The notes below the pieces were generated by a model. The model did no database searches. It had not been told where the DNA came from and was given only the letters and a program-made list of their open reading frames with translations. From a virus, in the IMG/VR virus record IMGVR_UViG_3300027851_000591, positions 1 to 23,943 of that record: 23,943 nt of DNA; one strand, given 5' to 3'. Both the position numbers and the translations under genes were made by a program. Shown here in pieces: positions 1 through 23,919 of this stretch. How positions within the stretch are numbered: the first letter of the stretch is position 1; every line of letters begins with the position of its first letter.

Positions 1-1
1 C

Positions 2-472
2 AATGCCCGCCCGCCCGTCTGCAAAATCCTCGATTACGGGAAATTCCGCTATGAAATGGCCAAGCGCGACCGCGAGGCCAAGAAGCACAATCTTTCCGCA
101 AGGGTGAAGGAACTGAAGTTCCACCTCAACACGGACACCCATGACTACATGGTGAAGATGCGCCATGCGGAGGATTTCATGATCAAGGGCATGAAAGTGA
201 AGCTCATGCTCGTCCTGCGCGGCCGGGAAATGATCCGCAAGGACGATGCCCGCGCCCTGGCCTTCAAAATCATCGCCGATCTCGGCCATGTGGCCTCCGC
301 CGACAACGATCCGAAATTGGTTGGCAGGAACATCAATTTGATGTTAACTCCCCTCCCCGAAAAAAAGCGGGTCCGGAAATACACGGTCGAAAACGAAGTC
401 TATGACGACGTTCCCGAGGGTCCGGAGGACGAGGAAGACGATGATTCCGACTCCGGGAATAGTAATTCGTAA
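2..472 (+). CDS. infC: Translation initiation factor IF-3, 5' end missing
   Basis: IF-3 binds the 30S subunit, keeps it apart from 50S and proofreads initiator tRNA pairing. The reading frame is already open at the left edge, and the visible part begins in the linker region with NARPPVCKILDYGKFRYE, an IF-3 signature. The C-terminal domain follows, ending near LMLTPLPEKKR. About 30 further residues form an acidic tail rich in E, D and S, longer than in the E. coli protein. The N-terminal domain and the start codon, which is often an unusual AUU in this gene, lie outside the window. It heads the classic infC-rpmI-rplT group, and rpmI starts 29 bases downstream, so co-transcription is likely. 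Identification is secure from sequence and neighbours; the function of the acidic tail is unknown. Confidence 0.96.
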   Translation, partial: NARPPVCKILDYGKFRYEMAKRDREAKKHNLSARVKELKFHLNTDTHDYMVKMRHAEDFMIKGMKVKLMLVLRGREMIRKDDARALAFKIIADLGHVASADNDPKLVGRNINLMLTPLPEKKRVRKYTVENEVYDDVPEGPEDEEDDDSDSGNSNS

Positions 473-501
473 CGCAATCAGAACTGAGAAAGAGAAGAAG
501 T

Positions 502-711
502 ATGGCCAAAGGAGTATCCCGTTCAAAGACGCGCAAAGCCGTGAGCAAGCGCTTCAAAATTTCCGCCAGTGGAAAAGTGAAAACTTCCCGCGCCGGACGC
601 CGCCACTTGGCGGGTAGCAAAAATCGCAAGCGCAAACGCCGCCTTGCCTCACCCAAAATGCTCAGCGACAGCGACCTGGGCAAAGTCAAAGAGAACTTGC
701 TCTTCGGCTGA
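502..711 (+). CDS. rpmI: 50S ribosomal protein L35 (bL35)
   Basis: bL35 is a small basic protein of the large ribosomal subunit. The 69-residue product is the usual length and carries the family pattern: a K/R-rich N-terminus (MAKGVSRSKTRKAVSKRF), then the SGKVK..RAGRRHLAGSKNRKRKR core. The ATG follows a purine-rich stretch (GAGAAGAAG) that serves as a weak ribosome binding site. The gene sits between infC and rplT, the conserved order in bacteria, and in many species these three genes are autoregulated by L20 binding to the mRNA. I did not identify the L20 binding structure here. Confidence 0.96.
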   Translation: MAKGVSRSKTRKAVSKRFKISASGKVKTSRAGRRHLAGSKNRKRKRRLASPKMLSDSDLGKVKENLLFG

Positions 712-749
712 TACCCTCTACGCTCGACCGTTCAACTTAAGGAAAATCC

Positions 750-1097
750 ATGCCCAGAGCCACTAATGCCCCCGCCTCCCGCGAACGCCGCAAACGGGTT
801 GTTGCCAGCGCCGCCGGATATCGCGGCCGCCGCAGCAAACTCTTCCGTTACGCGAAGGATGCCACCTACAAAGCCAAATACTGGTCCTACCGCGACCGCA
901 AAACCCGCAAACGCAATTTCCGTTCCCTGTGGACGGTCCGCATCAGCGCGGCGGTCAAGGCCTTCGACCTGAACTACAGCACTTTCATCGCCTCCCTGAA
1001 AAAGGCCAAGATCGAACTCGACCGCAAGGTCCTGGCCGATCTCGCCGTCGCGGATCCGGCGGTGTTTGAGCAGGTCGTCAAAGCGGCCCGCAGCTAA
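750..1097 (+). CDS. rplT: 50S ribosomal protein L20 (bL20)
   Basis: bL20 is an early-binding assembly protein of the 50S subunit. The 115-residue product has the family length and starts with [17 protein letters not shown], followed by the very basic N-terminal helix ([16 protein letters not shown]) and the globular C-terminal part with the [14 protein letters not shown] motif. The start is supported by AAGGAAA a few bases upstream. It ends the infC-rpmI-rplT group, and a strong intrinsic terminator follows at 1117-1155. The N-terminal style resembles Verrucomicrobiota L20 proteins; this is from memory and would need a search. Confidence 0.96.
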
Positions 1098-1116
1098 AGG
1101 GACACGTCCCTTACGA

Positions 1117-1155
1117 CGCCGCTGCCCGGATTCCGGCCAGCGGCGTTTTGCTTTT
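1117..1155 (+). terminator. Intrinsic terminator between rplT and pheS
   Basis: An 8-bp stem (CGCCGCTG with CAGCGGCG) is extended inward by a C-C mismatch and a further CCGG/CCGG pairing around a 3-base ATT loop. It is followed by TTTTGCTTTT. It ends the ribosomal-protein transcript. It lies only about 20 bases before the pheS start, so it could also act as an attenuator on pheS, but no leader peptide or T-box is visible. Confidence 0.85.
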
Positions 1156-1174
1156 GACCCCTGAGTAGATTTCC

Positions 1175-2191
1175 ATGATCACCGAACTCCAAGCCCTCCA
1201 GACCGAAGCCCTCCAAGCCTTGGAGCAGGTGGCCGATGCCGCGGCCCTGGAGGAATGGCGCATCACCTACCTCAGCCGCCAGGGCAAACTTCCCGCCGTC
1301 CTCGAAAAAATGAAGGACGTCCCGAAGGAACAACGCCCCGAAGCCGGCAAGGCCGCCAACCAGATCAAGAACGCCATCCAGGGCGCCTTCGACACGAAAA
1401 AGGAAGGCCTCTCCACCGTCCAGTCCAGCATGCCGGAAGATCCCAGCCTCCCCGGACGGTCCTTACCCCTCGGCGCCCGGCACCCCGTCTCCCGCCTGGT
1501 GGACCGCAGCGTCGACATCTTCCGCCGCATGGGATTCGCCCTCGCCACCGGGCCGGAAATCGACACCGAATTCCACAACTTCGACGCCCTGAACACCCCC
1601 GCCGACCACCCGGCGCGCAACGAACAGGACACCTTCTACCTCGATCTTCCCCCTGCGGGACAGTTGGGGCGGCGATTGCTCCGCTCCCACACCTCCACCG
1701 TGCAGATCCGCACGATGCAGAAAGAAAAGCCCCCGATCAAAATCATCGCCCCGGGCCGTTGTTTCCGGCGGGATGAGGTCGACGCCACCCACGGCATGTT
1801 TTTCACCCAATTGGAAGCCCTGGTGGTCGATGAAGGGATCAGCCTGGCCCACCTGAAGGGCACCATGGAATTCTTTTTCCGCGAGCTCTTCGGTCCGGAG
1901 ACCCGGATCCGTTTCCGGCCCCATTTCTTCCCCTTCACCGAACCCAGCTTCGAGGTCGACATGTCGGTTCCCGGCCTCCGCATCAAGGGCAAGGAATGGA
2001 TCGAAATCGGCGGCTGCGGGATGGTCGATCCGGCGGTCTTTGCCGCTGTGGGAATCGATTCCACCCGTTACACCGGTTTCGCCTTCGGCATGGGCCTGGA
2101 GCGGATGGTGATGATGATCCACGGCATCCCCGATTTGCGGCTGCTCTACGAAAACGACGTCCGGTTTCTGGAACAATTCCGGACCGCATAA
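1175..2191 (+). CDS. pheS: Phenylalanyl-tRNA synthetase alpha subunit
   Basis: PheS is the catalytic subunit of the alpha2beta2 class II enzyme that charges tRNA-Phe. The 338-residue product has the expected length. A coiled-coil N-terminal arm (about residues 1-90) is followed by the class II core. The core shows RRMGFALATGPEIDTEFHNFDALN, the motif 2 region with FRRDEVDATHGMFFTQLE, and the motif 3 region with FGMGLERMVMMIHGIPDLR near the C-terminus. The start ATG is preceded by TTGACC and a poor Shine-Dalgarno sequence. pheT, which often follows pheS, is not next: the gene is followed directly by a tRNA promoter and then the prophage. pheT must be elsewhere or beyond the prophage. Confidence 0.96.
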   Translation: MITELQALQTEALQALEQVADAAALEEWRITYLSRQGKLPAVLEKMKDVPKEQRPEAGKAANQIKNAIQGAFDTKKEGLSTVQSSMPEDPSLPGRSLPLGARHPVSRLVDRSVDIFRRMGFALATGPEIDTEFHNFDALNTPADHPARNEQDTFYLDLPPAGQLGRRLLRSHTSTVQIRTMQKEKPPIKIIAPGRCFRRDEVDATHGMFFTQLEALVVDEGISLAHLKGTMEFFFRELFGPETRIRFRPHFFPFTEPSFEVDMSVPGLRIKGKEWIEIGGCGMVDPAVFAAVGIDSTRYTGFAFGMGLERMVMMIHGIPDLRLLYENDVRFLEQFRTA

Positions 2192-2197
2192 GGGGTA

Positions 2198-2226
2198 TTG
2201 ACGCAGGGCCGGTGTGTTTTTAGTCT
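2198..2226 (+). promoter_or_regulatory. Probable sigma-70 promoter of tRNA-Tyr
   Basis: TTGACG (2198-2203) is separated by exactly 17 bases from TAGTCT (2221-2226), which is a good -35 and a fair -10. The predicted transcription start falls a few bases before the tRNA acceptor stem at 2239, as expected for a tRNA gene. Confidence 0.6.
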
Positions 2227-2238
2227 TTCAACTCCTTC

Positions 2239-2277
2239 GGGCGGATTCCGGAGTGGCCAAACGGGGCAGACTGTAAA
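2239..2277 (+). tRNA. 5' half of tRNA-Tyr (anticodon GTA), cut in the anticodon loop
   Basis: The acceptor 5' strand GGGCGGA (2239-2245), TT, D-stem CCG paired with CGG (2248-2250 with 2262-2264), D-loop with AGTGG, anticodon-stem 5' strand GCAGA (2266-2270) and loop CTGTAAA (2271-2277, anticodon GTA at 2273-2275) match bacterial tRNA-Tyr closely. After position 38 of the tRNA the sequence stops fitting. The expected TCTGC is replaced by ACTAC, and no variable arm, T-arm or TCCGCCC acceptor strand follows. As it stands this copy cannot make a normal tRNA. The missing half should lie at the other end of the prophage. Confidence 0.85.
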
Positions 2278-2282
2278 ACTAC
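2266..2282. other. Probable attachment site junction of the prophage (attL or attR)
   Basis: The chromosome-to-phage boundary lies within or just after the tRNA-Tyr anticodon loop: tRNA identity ends at 2277, and base composition drops sharply from the same point. Anticodon stem-loops are common core sites for tyrosine recombinases because the stem supplies the inverted repeat. The exact crossover and the size of the shared core cannot be fixed without the other junction or an empty site. No integrase is seen next to this end. Confidence 0.65.
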
Positions 2283-2340
2283 ATTGGTTGTTTGAATACC
2301 AATGACTTACAAAAGTGACCCGTGACAGGTGGTGTCACGG
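2282..2340. repeat. Two perfect hairpins just inside the prophage end
   Basis: CATTGGT and ACCAATG form a 7-bp stem around a 9-base loop (2282-2304). CCGTGACA and TGTCACGG form an 8-bp stem around GGTGG (2320-2340). Neither is followed by a T-run, so they are not typical terminators. Their place beside the attachment junction suggests recombinase-related or structural sites, which is inference. Confidence 0.5.
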
Positions 2341-2451
2341 ATTGACTGTTTCTAACCGTTCCCTGTTAAACCCTTTCTCCCGTGTCCCTATTCCCCATGG
2401 GGTGTTTTCCCCTTCCATTAATTAGGATGGTTCCTGATGTCACCCAGACAC

Positions 2452-2494
2452 GTTAAACAATGGGTTTGGTTGTCCATCATCAACCATGTTTAAC
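2452..2494. repeat. Long imperfect inverted repeat in the prophage end region
   Basis: GTTAAAC-a-ATGG (2452-2463) pairs with CCATGTTTAAC (2484-2494) as an 11-bp stem with one bulged A and a 20-base loop. An alternative inner pairing, TGGTTG with CAACCA (2467-2472 with 2481-2486), overlaps it. The region is otherwise non-coding. It could be an integrase arm region, an operator or a small RNA; the sequence does not decide. Confidence 0.4.
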
Positions 2495-2508
2495 ATCTGT
2501 TTCAAACA

Positions 2509-2602
2509 TTGATTCAATCAACGTAACTTTTGTATTGATTGCCTACAGGGTTCATGTGCAATCATCATGACAGTTGAATTAATCAACCGTCACCAAACTA
2601 AA
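2509..2602 (+). promoter_or_regulatory. Cluster of TTGATT/AATCAA half-sites with weak promoter for the 2620 gene
   Basis: The perfect palindrome TTGATTCAATCAA (2509-2521), TTGATT (2535-2540), CAATCA (2559-2564) and GTTGA-ATTAA-TCAAC (2573-2587) crowd into 80 bases upstream of the plus-strand gene. A weak promoter fits here: TTGAAT (2574-2579), 17 bases, ACTAAA (2597-2602). The last inverted repeat covers its -35, the layout expected of an operator. Recombinase arm sites are the main alternative. The rest of 2192-2619 holds the tRNA half and the hairpins listed separately, with no gene that I can see. Confidence 0.3.
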
Positions 2603-2619
2603 CAGAAAGATAAATCATC

Positions 2620-2922
2620 ATGGCTAAAATCAGTAAATCACAACTTGGATCAATGACACCAGAAGAACTTCTGGAATTGGTCGCTGACTTGAAAAGCGAC
2701 ACCATCAAGTCAAAATTGGAACCGGCAAAAAAAGAAGCACTTAAGAAGAAACGTGCTGAAGCACTAAGTAAGAAGTTTGAAAAGTATCAACCCCACTACG
2801 GTAACTATCAAAAACAACTTGATGTTATCAAACGGGAAATTGAAAAGAAAAAGGATATTCTTGAAACCCTTTATGGTTTGGGTTTCCCCCGTAAGGGTGG
2901 CGGAAAAAAGAAAAAGAAATAA
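2620..2922 (+). CDS. Lysine-rich coiled-coil protein of unknown function (moron-like)
   Basis: The 100-residue protein is not one I recognise. Residues 1-25 (SQLGSMTPEELLELVADLKS) look like a short acidic helix. Residues 26-85 are strongly charged and helical with heptad-like spacing (KKEALKKKRAEALSKKFEK; YQKQLDVIKREIEKKKDILETLYGLGF). The end is a flexible basic tail, PRKGGGKKKKK, suggesting nucleic acid binding. It has no membrane segment, signal peptide or helix-turn-helix. The start has only a weak AGAAAG upstream. It is the only plus-strand gene in the prophage part, lies beside the attachment end and faces the late operon, with its own terminator at 2941-2970. That arrangement fits a moron expressed in the lysogen; a DNA-architectural or excision accessory role is possible but unproven. 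Confidence 0.75.
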   Translation: MAKISKSQLGSMTPEELLELVADLKSDTIKSKLEPAKKEALKKKRAEALSKKFEKYQPHYGNYQKQLDVIKREIEKKKDILETLYGLGFPRKGGGKKKKK

Positions 2923-2934
2923 CGGTTAACCGTT
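2921..2934. repeat. Perfect 14-bp palindrome AACGGTTAACCGTT
   Basis: The palindrome begins within the stop codon of the 2620-2922 gene and precedes its terminator hairpin. With no room for a loop it is more likely a dimeric protein binding site than an RNA hairpin. A related GTTAACGG occurs in the gap upstream of the tail tube gene (about 11287). Confidence 0.5.
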
Positions 2935-2940
2935 TCTTAA

Positions 2941-2970
2941 AACCCTGTGATGAAAATCACGGGGTTTTTT
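2941..2970 (+). terminator. Intrinsic terminator of the 2620 gene, possibly bidirectional
   Basis: AACCCTGTGAT (2941-2951), the tetraloop GAAA (2952-2955) and ATCACGGGGTT (2956-2966) form an 11-bp stem with one G-T pair, followed by T residues to 2970. It separates converging transcripts: the plus-strand gene and the end of the late operon at 2980. On the minus strand the T-run is short, so it would stop late transcripts less efficiently. Confidence 0.85.
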
Positions 2971-2979
2971 GTTGTCTGT

Positions 2980-3291
2980 TCACTTCAACCAAATATCCAA
3001 AATCAACTTTACAGCAAATCCGATTATTCCGCCGAGTGATAGAATAGCGGTTACAATCCACGCATTATATTTTGCTGATGTGTTCTTTGCTGAATCCGTA
3101 GCAATCTTCTCGTTCTCCAAACTCTTCACCCGTGGTTCAAGGTCTTTGAATGGCGTAAGGATAATCAACTGTTCGTGAATCTTGGTGAGCTTCTCGCTGA
3201 TGTCTTTGAATAGAATATCAAAACTATTCAATCGCTTTTCCACGTTGTCCATTCTGTATGCCATCAGTTGATTCTTTTCATCTTCGCTCAT
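2980..3291 (-). CDS. XhlA/holin-like single-pass membrane protein
   Basis: The 103-residue product has a charged helical N-terminal part (MSEDEKNQLMAYRMDNVEKR) with coiled-coil character. It ends in one hydrophobic segment of about 22 residues (WIVTAILSLGGIIGFAVKLI) near the C-terminus. This layout is that of XhlA-type hemolysin/holin accessory proteins, which act with a holin or endolysin in the cytoplasmic membrane during lysis. It is the last gene of the tail operon, where lysis genes are often placed, but no endolysin is seen. I chose the ATG at 3291; an upstream in-frame TTG at 3312 directly abuts the previous stop and would add 7 residues. TTGACA lies 15 bases before the ATG. The call rests on topology and position only. 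Confidence 0.55.
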   Translation of the reverse strand: MSEDEKNQLMAYRMDNVEKRLNSFDILFKDISEKLTKIHEQLIILTPFKDLEPRVKSLENEKIATDSAKNTSAKYNAWIVTAILSLGGIIGFAVKLILDIWLK

Positions 3292-3312
3292 GCGTTTACA
3301 TTCGCGTGTCAA

Positions 3313-3684
3313 TTATTCGCCCAACACTTCTTCAAATGTGAATGGTGGATAGGGTAAATTGAGTGAACCCTGTATTGATTCCGCTCGTATTGTTTGTGTC
3401 CATTGATAAACTGCTACCAATCGTCGATGATTTTGTAAATCATCTTTATGTGTCATCATTAGTTCCAAACAAGTGATCAATCTTGTTGGACCATATCCAA
3501 CGTCGATCATGAATTGTTCTGCCTTCTGGACAGATTTGGGAATGGGCTGATATTTGATCCCTTCATTGGATATGAACGGATACTGGGTTGGGTTCGGTTC
3601 TCCATCGGGAATTTCTATCAAATCTCCTCGTTGATGGTCCTTCAAATAATCCCCCGTTGGATTTGGTAAAAATAAATAGTTCAT
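3313..3684 (-). CDS. Unknown protein downstream of the tail fibre
   Basis: The 123-residue soluble protein starts MNYLFLPNPTGDYLKDHQRG. The ATG at 3684 overlaps the fibre stop codon as ATGA, which implies translational coupling; a start 5 codons further up would overlap the fibre more and looks less likely. Residues 55-110 are predicted helical (AEQFMIDVGYGPTRLITCLE). The position just after a fibre gene is where fibre chaperones or fibre-associated proteins are often found, but I see no motif that confirms it. Confidence 0.6.
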   Translation of the reverse strand: MNYLFLPNPTGDYLKDHQRGDLIEIPDGEPNPTQYPFISNEGIKYQPIPKSVQKAEQFMIDVGYGPTRLITCLELMMTHKDDLQNHRRLVAVYQWTQTIRAESIQGSLNLPYPPFTFEEVLGE

Positions 3685-14276: not shown

Positions 14277-15116
14277 TCAACTATTCAGGTACGCCACCAA
14301 TGATTCCAAGTCGTTGATGACTCCATCTATCAAACCTGCGGTTAAAGCTTCGTCTGAATCAAACATCTGGCCTTGCATTGATTCATCCCCAACAGTTCTT
14401 TTTGCCAGTACGTAGGATTTGAATTCTGCGAAGCATTTATCAACGCCGTCTTGAATCAACTTCCGTTGATTGTCTGTGAGACTCTTTCCAGCAATACCCA
14501 TTGATTTGAATTCGCCACTGTCGAACACTTCCACTTTGTAACCTTCCTGTTCGTAGTGTTTGGAACTATCCACGTATGCGACACGCACACCAATTGAACC
14601 CACTTCTGCGGATTTACTGATGAAGATTCTTGAACACTGGGAAGCAAGGTAATAACCGGCACTTGCAATCATTCCGTTACTATAGGCAATAACGTTCTTT
14701 GTCTTTGCCACTTCTGCAATCAGGTCGGCAGTCTCGGGGACTTGTGTAACCACTCCACCGGGAGTATCAAAATCAATGATGATATTTTTTACCAAGTCGT
14801 TAGTTGCCAACTCTTTTAAGTTCTTCTGAAACAATTCTAAGGAGAACGCACCACACATCATTTCAAGCATTCCAGCTTTTGGCAGAATGGTTCCTTCCAC
14901 GTTGATAATTGCCGTGTTCCCTATGATGTCGTAATACTTTATTTCCTGTTCTGGTTCTGTGGATTCATCAGGCATCATGTCTGCTATATCCATCGTTCCT
15001 TTTAAATGTGCATCAAGTAATCCACGTATGGCTTGATACTTCGCGGGAAGGATTAACCACTTGGTTTCATCATTCACGATTGCGACTATCCGACTTAAAT
15101 CTTTTTTGTGTTTCAT
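14277..15116 (-). CDS. S49-family prohead protease (lambda C-like)
   Basis: The 279-residue protein is a ClpP-fold serine protease that cleaves scaffold and capsid proteins in the prohead. The S49/SppA core runs from about residue 68 (TAIINVEGTILPKAGM) through IIIDFDTPGGVV (112-123), the nucleophile in GMIASAGYYLAS (Ser152) and the general base in GEFKSMG (Lys204). The N-terminal 60 residues are a phage-specific extension. Its ATG overlaps the portal stop by one base (TAATG), so it is translationally coupled to portal as in many lambda-type modules. Its catalytic dyad is intact. Confidence 0.88.
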   Translation of the reverse strand: MKHKKDLSRIVAIVNDETKWLILPAKYQAIRGLLDAHLKGTMDIADMMPDESTEPEQEIKYYDIIGNTAIINVEGTILPKAGMLEMMCGAFSLELFQKNLKELATNDLVKNIIIDFDTPGGVVTQVPETADLIAEVAKTKNVIAYSNGMIASAGYYLASQCSRIFISKSAEVGSIGVRVAYVDSSKHYEQEGYKVEVFDSGEFKSMGIAGKSLTDNQRKLIQDGVDKCFAEFKSYVLAKRTVGDESMQGQMFDSDEALTAGLIDGVINDLESLVAYLNS

Positions 15117-20040: not shown

Positions 20041-20781
20041 TTAAAACGGCAACATGTCTGTGTGACACTGTGCGAATTCTTTTTCTTCTCTCCAATCATC
20101 TGCTTTTTCGTTCCATCGTAAGATCATCCAATCTTTCGGCAGACTCATTAAAATTTGTTTGTGTCTGAATTCATCATTGATACGTTGTTTTTCTGTAAAA
20201 TGATGTGGTTCATCCCATTCGATTATCAGCTTTAAATCTTCACAGTAGTAATCAACCGCATATCTTCCATCCACTACTTTCTCGCCACCGTTCAGAGCAT
20301 GAAGACCGTTAACATTTAAACGTTTGTTGATCACGTCAAAGATACGACAAGCGGTTTTGTTGTAGTTCAAACAAATCGTATCGGATTCTGTGATACGTTG
20401 TTTACTTGCGATACTCATTTTCCGTTTTGTTTCTTCTGTGTGTTTGATTCCTTTGTGTGATTCAGACATTTTTGATCGGGATACGGCACTATGTTTCTTT
20501 CCTTTTTTTGCGGCACTCATTCTAGCAATACTTTTTTTGCTATGATTCTTGCCAAATCTCGGATGATTGGAACCCAAGTAAGCAACACTCCTATTTTTCC
20601 GTCGTTCAGGTGTCCACGAATCTTTTACTGCGGAACTTATTTTATCACGATGTTCTGTAGAAAGTTTCTTCCCTTTTTGTGCAACACTTAATCTTTCACG
20701 ATGTTCTGGTGTCATTATTTCTTTTGTTTTGGAACTAATTCTTTCACGGGTTTCTGCACTATGTTTTTGCCCTTTTCTCAT
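20041..20781 (-). CDS. Free-standing homing endonuclease: NUMOD3 repeats plus Vsr/DUF559-like nuclease
   Basis: The 246-residue protein has two parts. Residues 4-125 contain about seven copies of the NUMOD3 DNA-binding repeat (GQKHSAETRERIS, MTPEHRERLS, GKKLSTEHRDKIS, WTPERRKNRS, GKNHSKKSIARMS, GKKHSAVSRSKMS, GIKHTEETKRKMS). Residues 135-230 form a nuclease with YAVDYYCEDLKLIIEWDEPHHF (Asp177, Glu188, Asp190, His193/194) and DWMILRWNE, resembling the Vsr-like EDxHD and DUF559 enzymes, not GIY-YIG or HNH. The start overlaps the upstream stop as ATGA. Such genes spread by cutting phages that lack them; no intron or intein is evident here, so it is free-standing. Target unknown. Confidence 0.75.
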   Translation of the reverse strand: MRKGQKHSAETRERISSKTKEIMTPEHRERLSVAQKGKKLSTEHRDKISSAVKDSWTPERRKNRSVAYLGSNHPRFGKNHSKKSIARMSAAKKGKKHSAVSRSKMSESHKGIKHTEETKRKMSIASKQRITESDTICLNYNKTACRIFDVINKRLNVNGLHALNGGEKVVDGRYAVDYYCEDLKLIIEWDEPHHFTEKQRINDEFRHKQILMSLPKDWMILRWNEKADDWREEKEFAQCHTDMLPF

Positions 20782-23242: not shown

Positions 23243-23395
23243 TCATCCCCATAAATAAACTTCCCGTTGTCCTGCGTGTCTGTGATTCCAATTGTAGAAA
23301 TACGGGTGCCATTCAGGGTCTTGAAATAATCTCTGTTTGGGTTTGTAGTTCTTGTATGCATCCACTCTGATTTTAATACGTTCCGTTAAACTCAT
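23243..23395 (-). CDS. Short 50-residue gene coupled to the HNH gene
   Basis: The frame encodes MSLTERIKIRVDAYKNYKPK, then QRLFQDPEWHPYFYNWNHRH and a tail ending YLWG. Its ATG overlaps the HNH stop codon as ATGA, the same coupling used by many neighbours, and it fills the gap between the HNH gene and the gene starting at 23222. Composition is basic and aromatic. Function unknown. The frame is short, so chance is not excluded, but its fit to the operon is good. Confidence 0.55.
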   Translation of the reverse strand: MSLTERIKIRVDAYKNYKPKQRLFQDPEWHPYFYNWNHRHAGQREVYLWG

Positions 23396-23919
23396 GAAAG
23401 TAATGCTGGTGAACAGTCATCTCCATTCTTGTGCGACATCATCAATTCAATTGAAATATCATCCACCAAATCAATTTTCATTCGGGTTGTGATCATCGTA
23501 AAAATCATTTCGTTCTCTATTTTGTTTTTCTTCTTCTGATTCTGTAGGGAAGGAATGATTCTGAGATTGTACCAAACGTGTTTGTATGCGGTTAGTGTTG
23601 GGTTCTTCTTGAACCAAGATAACGGGACGATGTGATCAATTTGATATGTTCCATTCAACAACCCGTTTAATTGTTCGGGCGTTTCACAAAGATATTCCAA
23701 TACGTCTTTGCGTTTCATTCCCACCATCAGTTCAAAACGTTCTGTTGCTTTACCAACTGTTCTTGTTTCTTGTTTAGCTTCTCGTCTGATTTGATAACTG
23801 ATGAAAATTCTGTCTGCGTGATCCTGTGCGAATTGTTTATCTGTTGATCTGCGGTTCCGTTGATACTTTCTTTGATAAGCGGGTTCTCCACCTTTGATTT
23901 TATAAATTCCCTTACTCAT
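23392..23919 (-). CDS. HNH endonuclease
   Basis: The 175-residue protein has a basic N-terminus (GGEPAYQRKYQRNRRS) and an HNH fold with YQIDHIVPLSWF (Asp95, His96) and WYNLRIIPSLQNQKKKNKI (Asn118, Asn127 and following lysines) as the metal and base positions. It lies at the start of the visible early operon and is preceded by AAGGAAT. HNH proteins near cos phage terminases either support DNA packaging or act as free-standing homing enzymes. The terminase here is about 4 kb downstream, which favours the second, but this is open. Confidence 0.8.
   Translation of the reverse strand: MSKGIYKIKGGEPAYQRKYQRNRRSTDKQFAQDHADRIFISYQIRREAKQETRTVGKATERFELMVGMKRKDVLEYLCETPEQLNGLLNGTYQIDHIVPLSWFKKNPTLTAYKHVWYNLRIIPSLQNQKKKNKIENEMIFTMITTRMKIDLVDDISIELMMSHKNGDDCSPALLS

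Follow-up and report, generated by a model that had tools for sequence, protein, structure and literature searches.

The 23,943-nt IMG/VR virus record IMGVR_UViG_3300027851_000591, analysed here over its whole length (hereafter the window), passes from host genes into phage DNA inside a tRNA-Tyr gene, and this site is probably the left attachment site (attL) of a prophage of approximately 30 kb. The phage attachment site (attP) probably brings in a replacement 5′-half and upstream DNA, by which tRNA-Tyr would be rebuilt beside the integrase gene. The original prediction had described a tRNA-Tyr 5′-half of 39 bases, a match that ends at the anticodon loop together with a fall in base composition, and following bases that do not belong to a tRNA, all of which stand. 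Nucleotides 2239-2277 are identical (39/39, E 4e-16) to the start of the tRNA-Tyr(GTA) called by ARAGORN in the genome G008, which belongs to the same order as the organism from which the contig L002 derives. The features around the junction are as follows.

2198-2226, plus strand: promoter-like element of the host tRNA-Tyr, consisting of TTGACG, which is kept in G008 and L002, and a −10 element near TTTAGT/TAGTCT
2239-2277, plus strand: 5′-half of the host tRNA-Tyr(GTA), from the acceptor strand through the anticodon loop, 39/39 identical to G008
2271-2277, plus strand: anticodon loop CTGTAAA, the presumed 7-bp crossover overlap of the integrase, as suggested by the tRNA structure and by relatives that break at the same place
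2278-2304, plus strand: first phage bases, ACTAC and a hairpin (2282-2304), with no homology to tRNA
2278-23943, no strand assigned: prophage, which continues for 8,005 bp more in a second record (G001) up to the integrase gene, window 3681-23943 being 100% identical to G001

In G008 an intact tRNA-Tyr lies at the same locus, behind pheS, and the alignment with this genome extends at 84-90% across infC-rpmI-rplT-pheS-tRNA and breaks off precisely at 2277, where the anticodon loop ends. The order pheS-tRNA-Tyr is likewise found in L002, with the gene uninterrupted. (L002 is JAAUTS010000101.1, titled Blastochloris sp.; its pheS locus and order-mates are Verrucomicrobiota-like, and the name may be wrong.) The window thus contains a tRNA 5′ fragment truncated at an integrase sublocation, with uninterrupted genes at the same place in relatives. 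The five bases after 2277 are ACTAC, against TCTGC in the intact gene, and are followed by the hairpin CATTGGT/ACCAATG, while G+C falls from approximately 0.60 to 0.41 across the junction. No tRNA was detected in the window by ARAGORN or by Rfam at the gathering threshold, or in the phage stretches L013 and L014, and a search of the phage for the 3′-half of tRNA-Tyr with 4-letter words returned only chance-level matches (E 3.5 or worse). The hallmark of the common 3′-fragment islands, in which the host 5′-half runs into a 3′-half supplied by the element, is therefore absent, since ACTAC and no 3′-half follow the loop. The promoter-like element remains beside the orphan 5′-half; it fell below the threshold of a consensus promoter scan and was not listed, and a looser score recovered TTGACG in the window, G008 and L002.

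The statement that the tRNA is not rebuilt by the prophage holds for the left end; for the element as a whole, a substitute 5′-half at the opposite end is favoured. The sequence beyond 23943, which the original prediction had proposed to inspect, was extended by 8,005 bp through G001 (IMGVR_UViG_3300006033_001292, 28,268 bp), the one other record that matched this phage, which overlaps the window by 20,263 bp at 100%. This extension yielded the integrase gene and no tRNA 3′-half, and the right junction was not reached. The first base of G001 is the ATG of a 402-aa tyrosine integrase (PF00589, E 1.8e-8; L013:1-1209), which thus lies within the element at the end opposite the 2277 junction, on the minus strand in the orientation of the window; its start codon faces the right junction, which is missing. 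G001 begins at window 3681 on the left and ends at the integrase ATG on the right, so that neither junction is covered; because its ends sit exactly on gene boundaries, the record seems to have been trimmed. The right junction was reached in no record, and a scan for the start of the integrase gene matched G001 alone.

This geometry restricts the possible arrangements. Both arrangements in which the phage carries a 3′-half are excluded, because either the 3′-half or the integrase gene would then lie at the 2277 end. A host 5′-half without a 3′-half at the integrase-distal end fits a phage that carries a 5′-half or one that carries neither half. A model for the former is that the tyrosine integrase would insert the phage into the host tRNA-Tyr behind pheS, at its anticodon loop, with the 7-base loop presumably serving as the crossover overlap, leaving the host promoter and the host 5′-half stranded at the left end. 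The substitute 5′-half, which attP would bring with its own upstream DNA, would be joined to the host 3′-half (beginning CTGTAAATCTGC) next to the integrase gene; the result would be a complete tRNA-Tyr in divergent orientation to the integrase gene. Excision would restore the original gene, and attP would be expected as integrase-side DNA joined to ACTACATTGG.

Comparison with related integrases supports this model. The phage integrase was searched in 387 genomes of the phylum (Verrucomicrobiota), of which 202 matched, and 70 integrase loci were taken (30 given as loci and 40 picked by hand). ARAGORN identified a tRNA or transfer-messenger RNA gene just 5′ of the integrase gene in 34 of the 70 (20 on the same strand and 14 on the opposite strand), covariance searches on 14 of the other 36 loci revealed more tRNA-like remnants, and these integrases likewise use the anticodon loop. 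A second search, with the integrase of the genome G332 against 345 genomes of its class, gave matches at 1e-20 in 63 genomes, and stretches were obtained for 14 hand-chosen hits; G657 and G454 come from this search. A divergent tRNA next to the integrase gene was dropped as sufficient proof of a carried 5′-half, being contradicted by G375, G029, G025, G100, G271 and G176:C62. The full tRNA-Lys called by ARAGORN in G375 (L227) is a displaced 3′ fragment with a chance (cryptic) 5′ side, and covariance-model scans (cmscan) and repeats identified similar displaced 3′ fragments in the other five. Because a divergent tRNA proved unreliable in this way, the assignment to kinds was restricted to elements of which both ends were resolved. 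Calls of the G375 type also inflate tRNA counts.

Two kinds of element were distinguished on this basis. In the 3′-half kind, the integrase gene faces a displaced 3′ fragment and the intact tRNA is located at the far end (G029, G025, G100, G271:C89 and G176:C62; further examples are G375, G485, G643 and G116:C1, with G501 less sure). In the 5′-half kind, an intact, divergent tRNA adjoins the integrase gene and an orphan 5′-half is located at the integrase-distal end, as in G332 (tRNA-Arg(TCT), copies sharing 41 nt and 14.7 kb apart), G657 (tRNA-Ser(TGA), 43 nt, 11.4 kb) and G454 (tRNA-Arg(CCT), 44 nt, 9.0 kb). The two copies diverge at most 3 bases upstream of the tRNA in all three; the 5′-half and the upstream DNA of the integrase-side tRNA come from the element. 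The orphan halves of these elements and of the window break off either with the last base of the anticodon loop or one base later. The orientation of integrase gene to tRNA is the same in both kinds, which differ in the half that the element carries; the switch can be seen between G332:C6, G657:C156 and G454:C7 on the one hand and G029:C88, G025:C1, G100:C19, G485:C319, G643:C38 and G116:C1 on the other. The phage resembles G332, G657 and G454 in its integrase family, in the break at the end of the loop and in the orphan 5′-half at the integrase-distal end, and it differs from them in that they use other tRNAs (Arg, Ser), with 9-15 kb between the copies; the integrase of G332 is 26% identical to that of the phage. 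The promoter score gave a good promoter ahead of the G332 orphan half. Empty-site searches were uninformative, covering one genome for the G657 family and matching tRNA-Arg 3′-halves or downstream pieces for the G332 family. In G332, a TTTTATTGGGCTTTT stretch is common to both inner ends (L258:366-390 and 14972-15000), resembling arm-type integrase sites.

A phage that carries only identity to the loop, and neither half, would leave tRNA-Tyr broken, to be compensated by another copy, in the host or elsewhere, or by frequent excision. No tRNA half was found in the sequenced part of the phage, and the right attachment site (attR) is unseen, as such a phage would allow; however, a tRNA-Tyr probe gave a single match in 39 of the 41 genomes of the host order with a match (two in the remaining 2), and one in G008, and related elements with two resolved ends keep one intact tRNA, so that this alternative is unlikely. 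No exact match to the probe was obtained in 21 of the 62 genomes of the order, which reflects incompleteness of the genomes or variants of the stem. Most members of the host order have a single tRNA-Tyr copy. The suggestion that the tRNA is lost, with a second copy needed, is not borne out by these counts, and permanent loss of tRNA-Tyr in the lysogen is unlikely because the probe matches only once in 39 of the 41 genomes. Without tRNA-Tyr a lysogen would not be viable, and a carried 5′-half is therefore the most likely arrangement. It is conceivable, though very improbable, that the phage rebuilds nothing and that integration silences the single tRNA-Tyr while excision reactivates it, with lysogens mixed or rapidly excising; if true, the integrity of an essential tRNA gene would be regulated.

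Other accounts concern the history of the left end. A 3′-half might once have been supplied there and then removed by a later deletion or a second insertion, an idea that draws on the fact that the nearest relatives of the phage integrase, G029 and G025, both in the host order, are of the 3′-half kind in the same orientation. The break nevertheless falls exactly on the crossover point, as in the three intact 5′-half elements, where a random deletion would rarely start, and this account is quite unlikely. The window could also be a chimeric join of host and phage contigs, given that G001 stops at window 3681 and the junction is covered by no second record. However, the join lies at the end of the anticodon loop, which by our own estimate would occur by chance at approximately 3 in 2277 positions, and the phage end found there is the one opposite the integrase gene; a chimera is very unlikely, given that the break coincides with the crossover point of the integrase. 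Among the three options originally offered, namely a substitute 5′-half with an exchange of the promoter side, loss of the tRNA and a chimeric contig, the first is thus the best supported, because it agrees with the position and orientation of the integrase gene, with the three complete relatives and with a published class of such islands.

Several observations weigh against a carried 5′-half. Neither attR nor attP has been seen, since G001 ends at the integrase ATG, and window 2278-3680 has no second record confirming its link to the phage. In a quick tree of 67 of 71 proteins (four fragments of <250 aa were left out), the phage integrase groups with 3′-half carriers (L163, L171) and not with the main 5′-half cluster, a weak placement on a long branch (SH-aLRT 80); kind labels are clustered on this tree (5 changes, against 11.7 in shuffles). 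A displaced 5′-half was found in only 3 of 13 scanned elements with an intact divergent tRNA (G403, G326, G424, G125, G428, G279, G427, G182, G197, G332, G657, G454 and G448), most of whose contigs end <30 kb from the integrase gene, and none was found in G197 (96 kb beyond the integrase gene) or G427 (29 kb). Furthermore, the looser score revealed no clear sigma-70 promoter upstream of the 5′-halves supplied by elements.

In the first integrase codons, 12/14 bases match the tRNA 5′-half (L013:11-24); this stretch was rejected as an attP core, with E 8.4 and flanks that agree with neither the tRNA nor the window. Orphan tRNA-Tyr halves with a non-T base after the loop were sought: the one match in the 62 order genomes lies where ARAGORN calls no tRNA, and those in two viral contigs sit inside an open reading frame (ORF). 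The whole anticodon-arm pattern was too unspecific to use in viral contigs.

The host part of the window (1-2191) contains four genes in the order infC, rpmI, rplT and pheS, identified as ORFs, whose names we presume from product and gene order. These genes and the first gene inside the junction are as follows.

2-472, plus strand: presumed host infC, truncated at its 5′ end by the limit of the record, 90% identity to G008
502-711, plus strand: presumed host rpmI (L35), syntenic in G008
750-1097, plus strand: presumed host rplT (L20), syntenic in G008
1175-2191, plus strand: presumed host pheS, directly 5′ of the tRNA, with relatives found by tblastn
2620-2922, plus strand: ORF of 100 lysine-rich aa, first gene inside the junction, codirectional with pheS and with the displaced promoter

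A query of pheS with the tRNA half matched DNA in 59 of the 62 genomes of the host order, and a pheS search gave no viral relatives. The 100-aa ORF, closed by a terminator-like stem (2939-2968), has no Pfam or PHROG match, and nothing was found when it and the attL pattern were searched in viral contigs. The phage genes include a large terminase of the GpA type, a lambda-type portal and a head maturation protease. Three nuclease-like genes are also present (window 20041-20781 and 23392-23919; L013:1310-1732), of the NUMOD3 homing, endonuclease VII/HNH and SegE GIY-YIG types.

In the Islander report, 3760 of 3919 islands have a 3′ tDNA fragment and 159 have a 5′ fragment, and the sites are anticodon-centred in 2083 (PMC4383910). 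The phage resembles the 5′-fragment islands described there in its tyrosine integrase, its crossover within a tRNA and its displaced 5′ fragment at one end; unlike them, it is known from the displaced end alone, whereas Islander requires both ends (PMC4383910). With the common 3′-fragment islands it shares the tRNA target and the anticodon-loop crossover, but those leave a 3′ fragment, and the gene they restore keeps the host promoter. According to a review of archaeal tyrosine recombinases, the restored tRNA gene of bacteria keeps its promoter with very few exceptions; pTN3-like integrases rely on the 5′-half, so that the integrase promoter drives transcription of the gene, and this situation is seldom met in bacteria, for which Williams 2002 is cited (PMC8371274). 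Transcription of the restored gene from a promoter on the integrase side, as would apply to the window, is a likeness to the pTN3-like elements, which differ in being archaeal (PMC8371274). A narrow search of the literature found no report of the present phage. Its attL is probably an addition to a known, uncommon kind of island.

If the substitution is true, the only tRNA-Tyr of the lysogen would be transcribed from phage DNA between tRNA-Tyr and the integrase gene, and a basic host function would therefore depend on the prophage. In addition, elements with integrases of one family, which share a single crossover point and orientation, carry the 5′-half of their target in some cases and the 3′-half in others, which opens the origin of the rare 5′ kind to comparison. 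The switch between the two kinds may be worth a proper survey.
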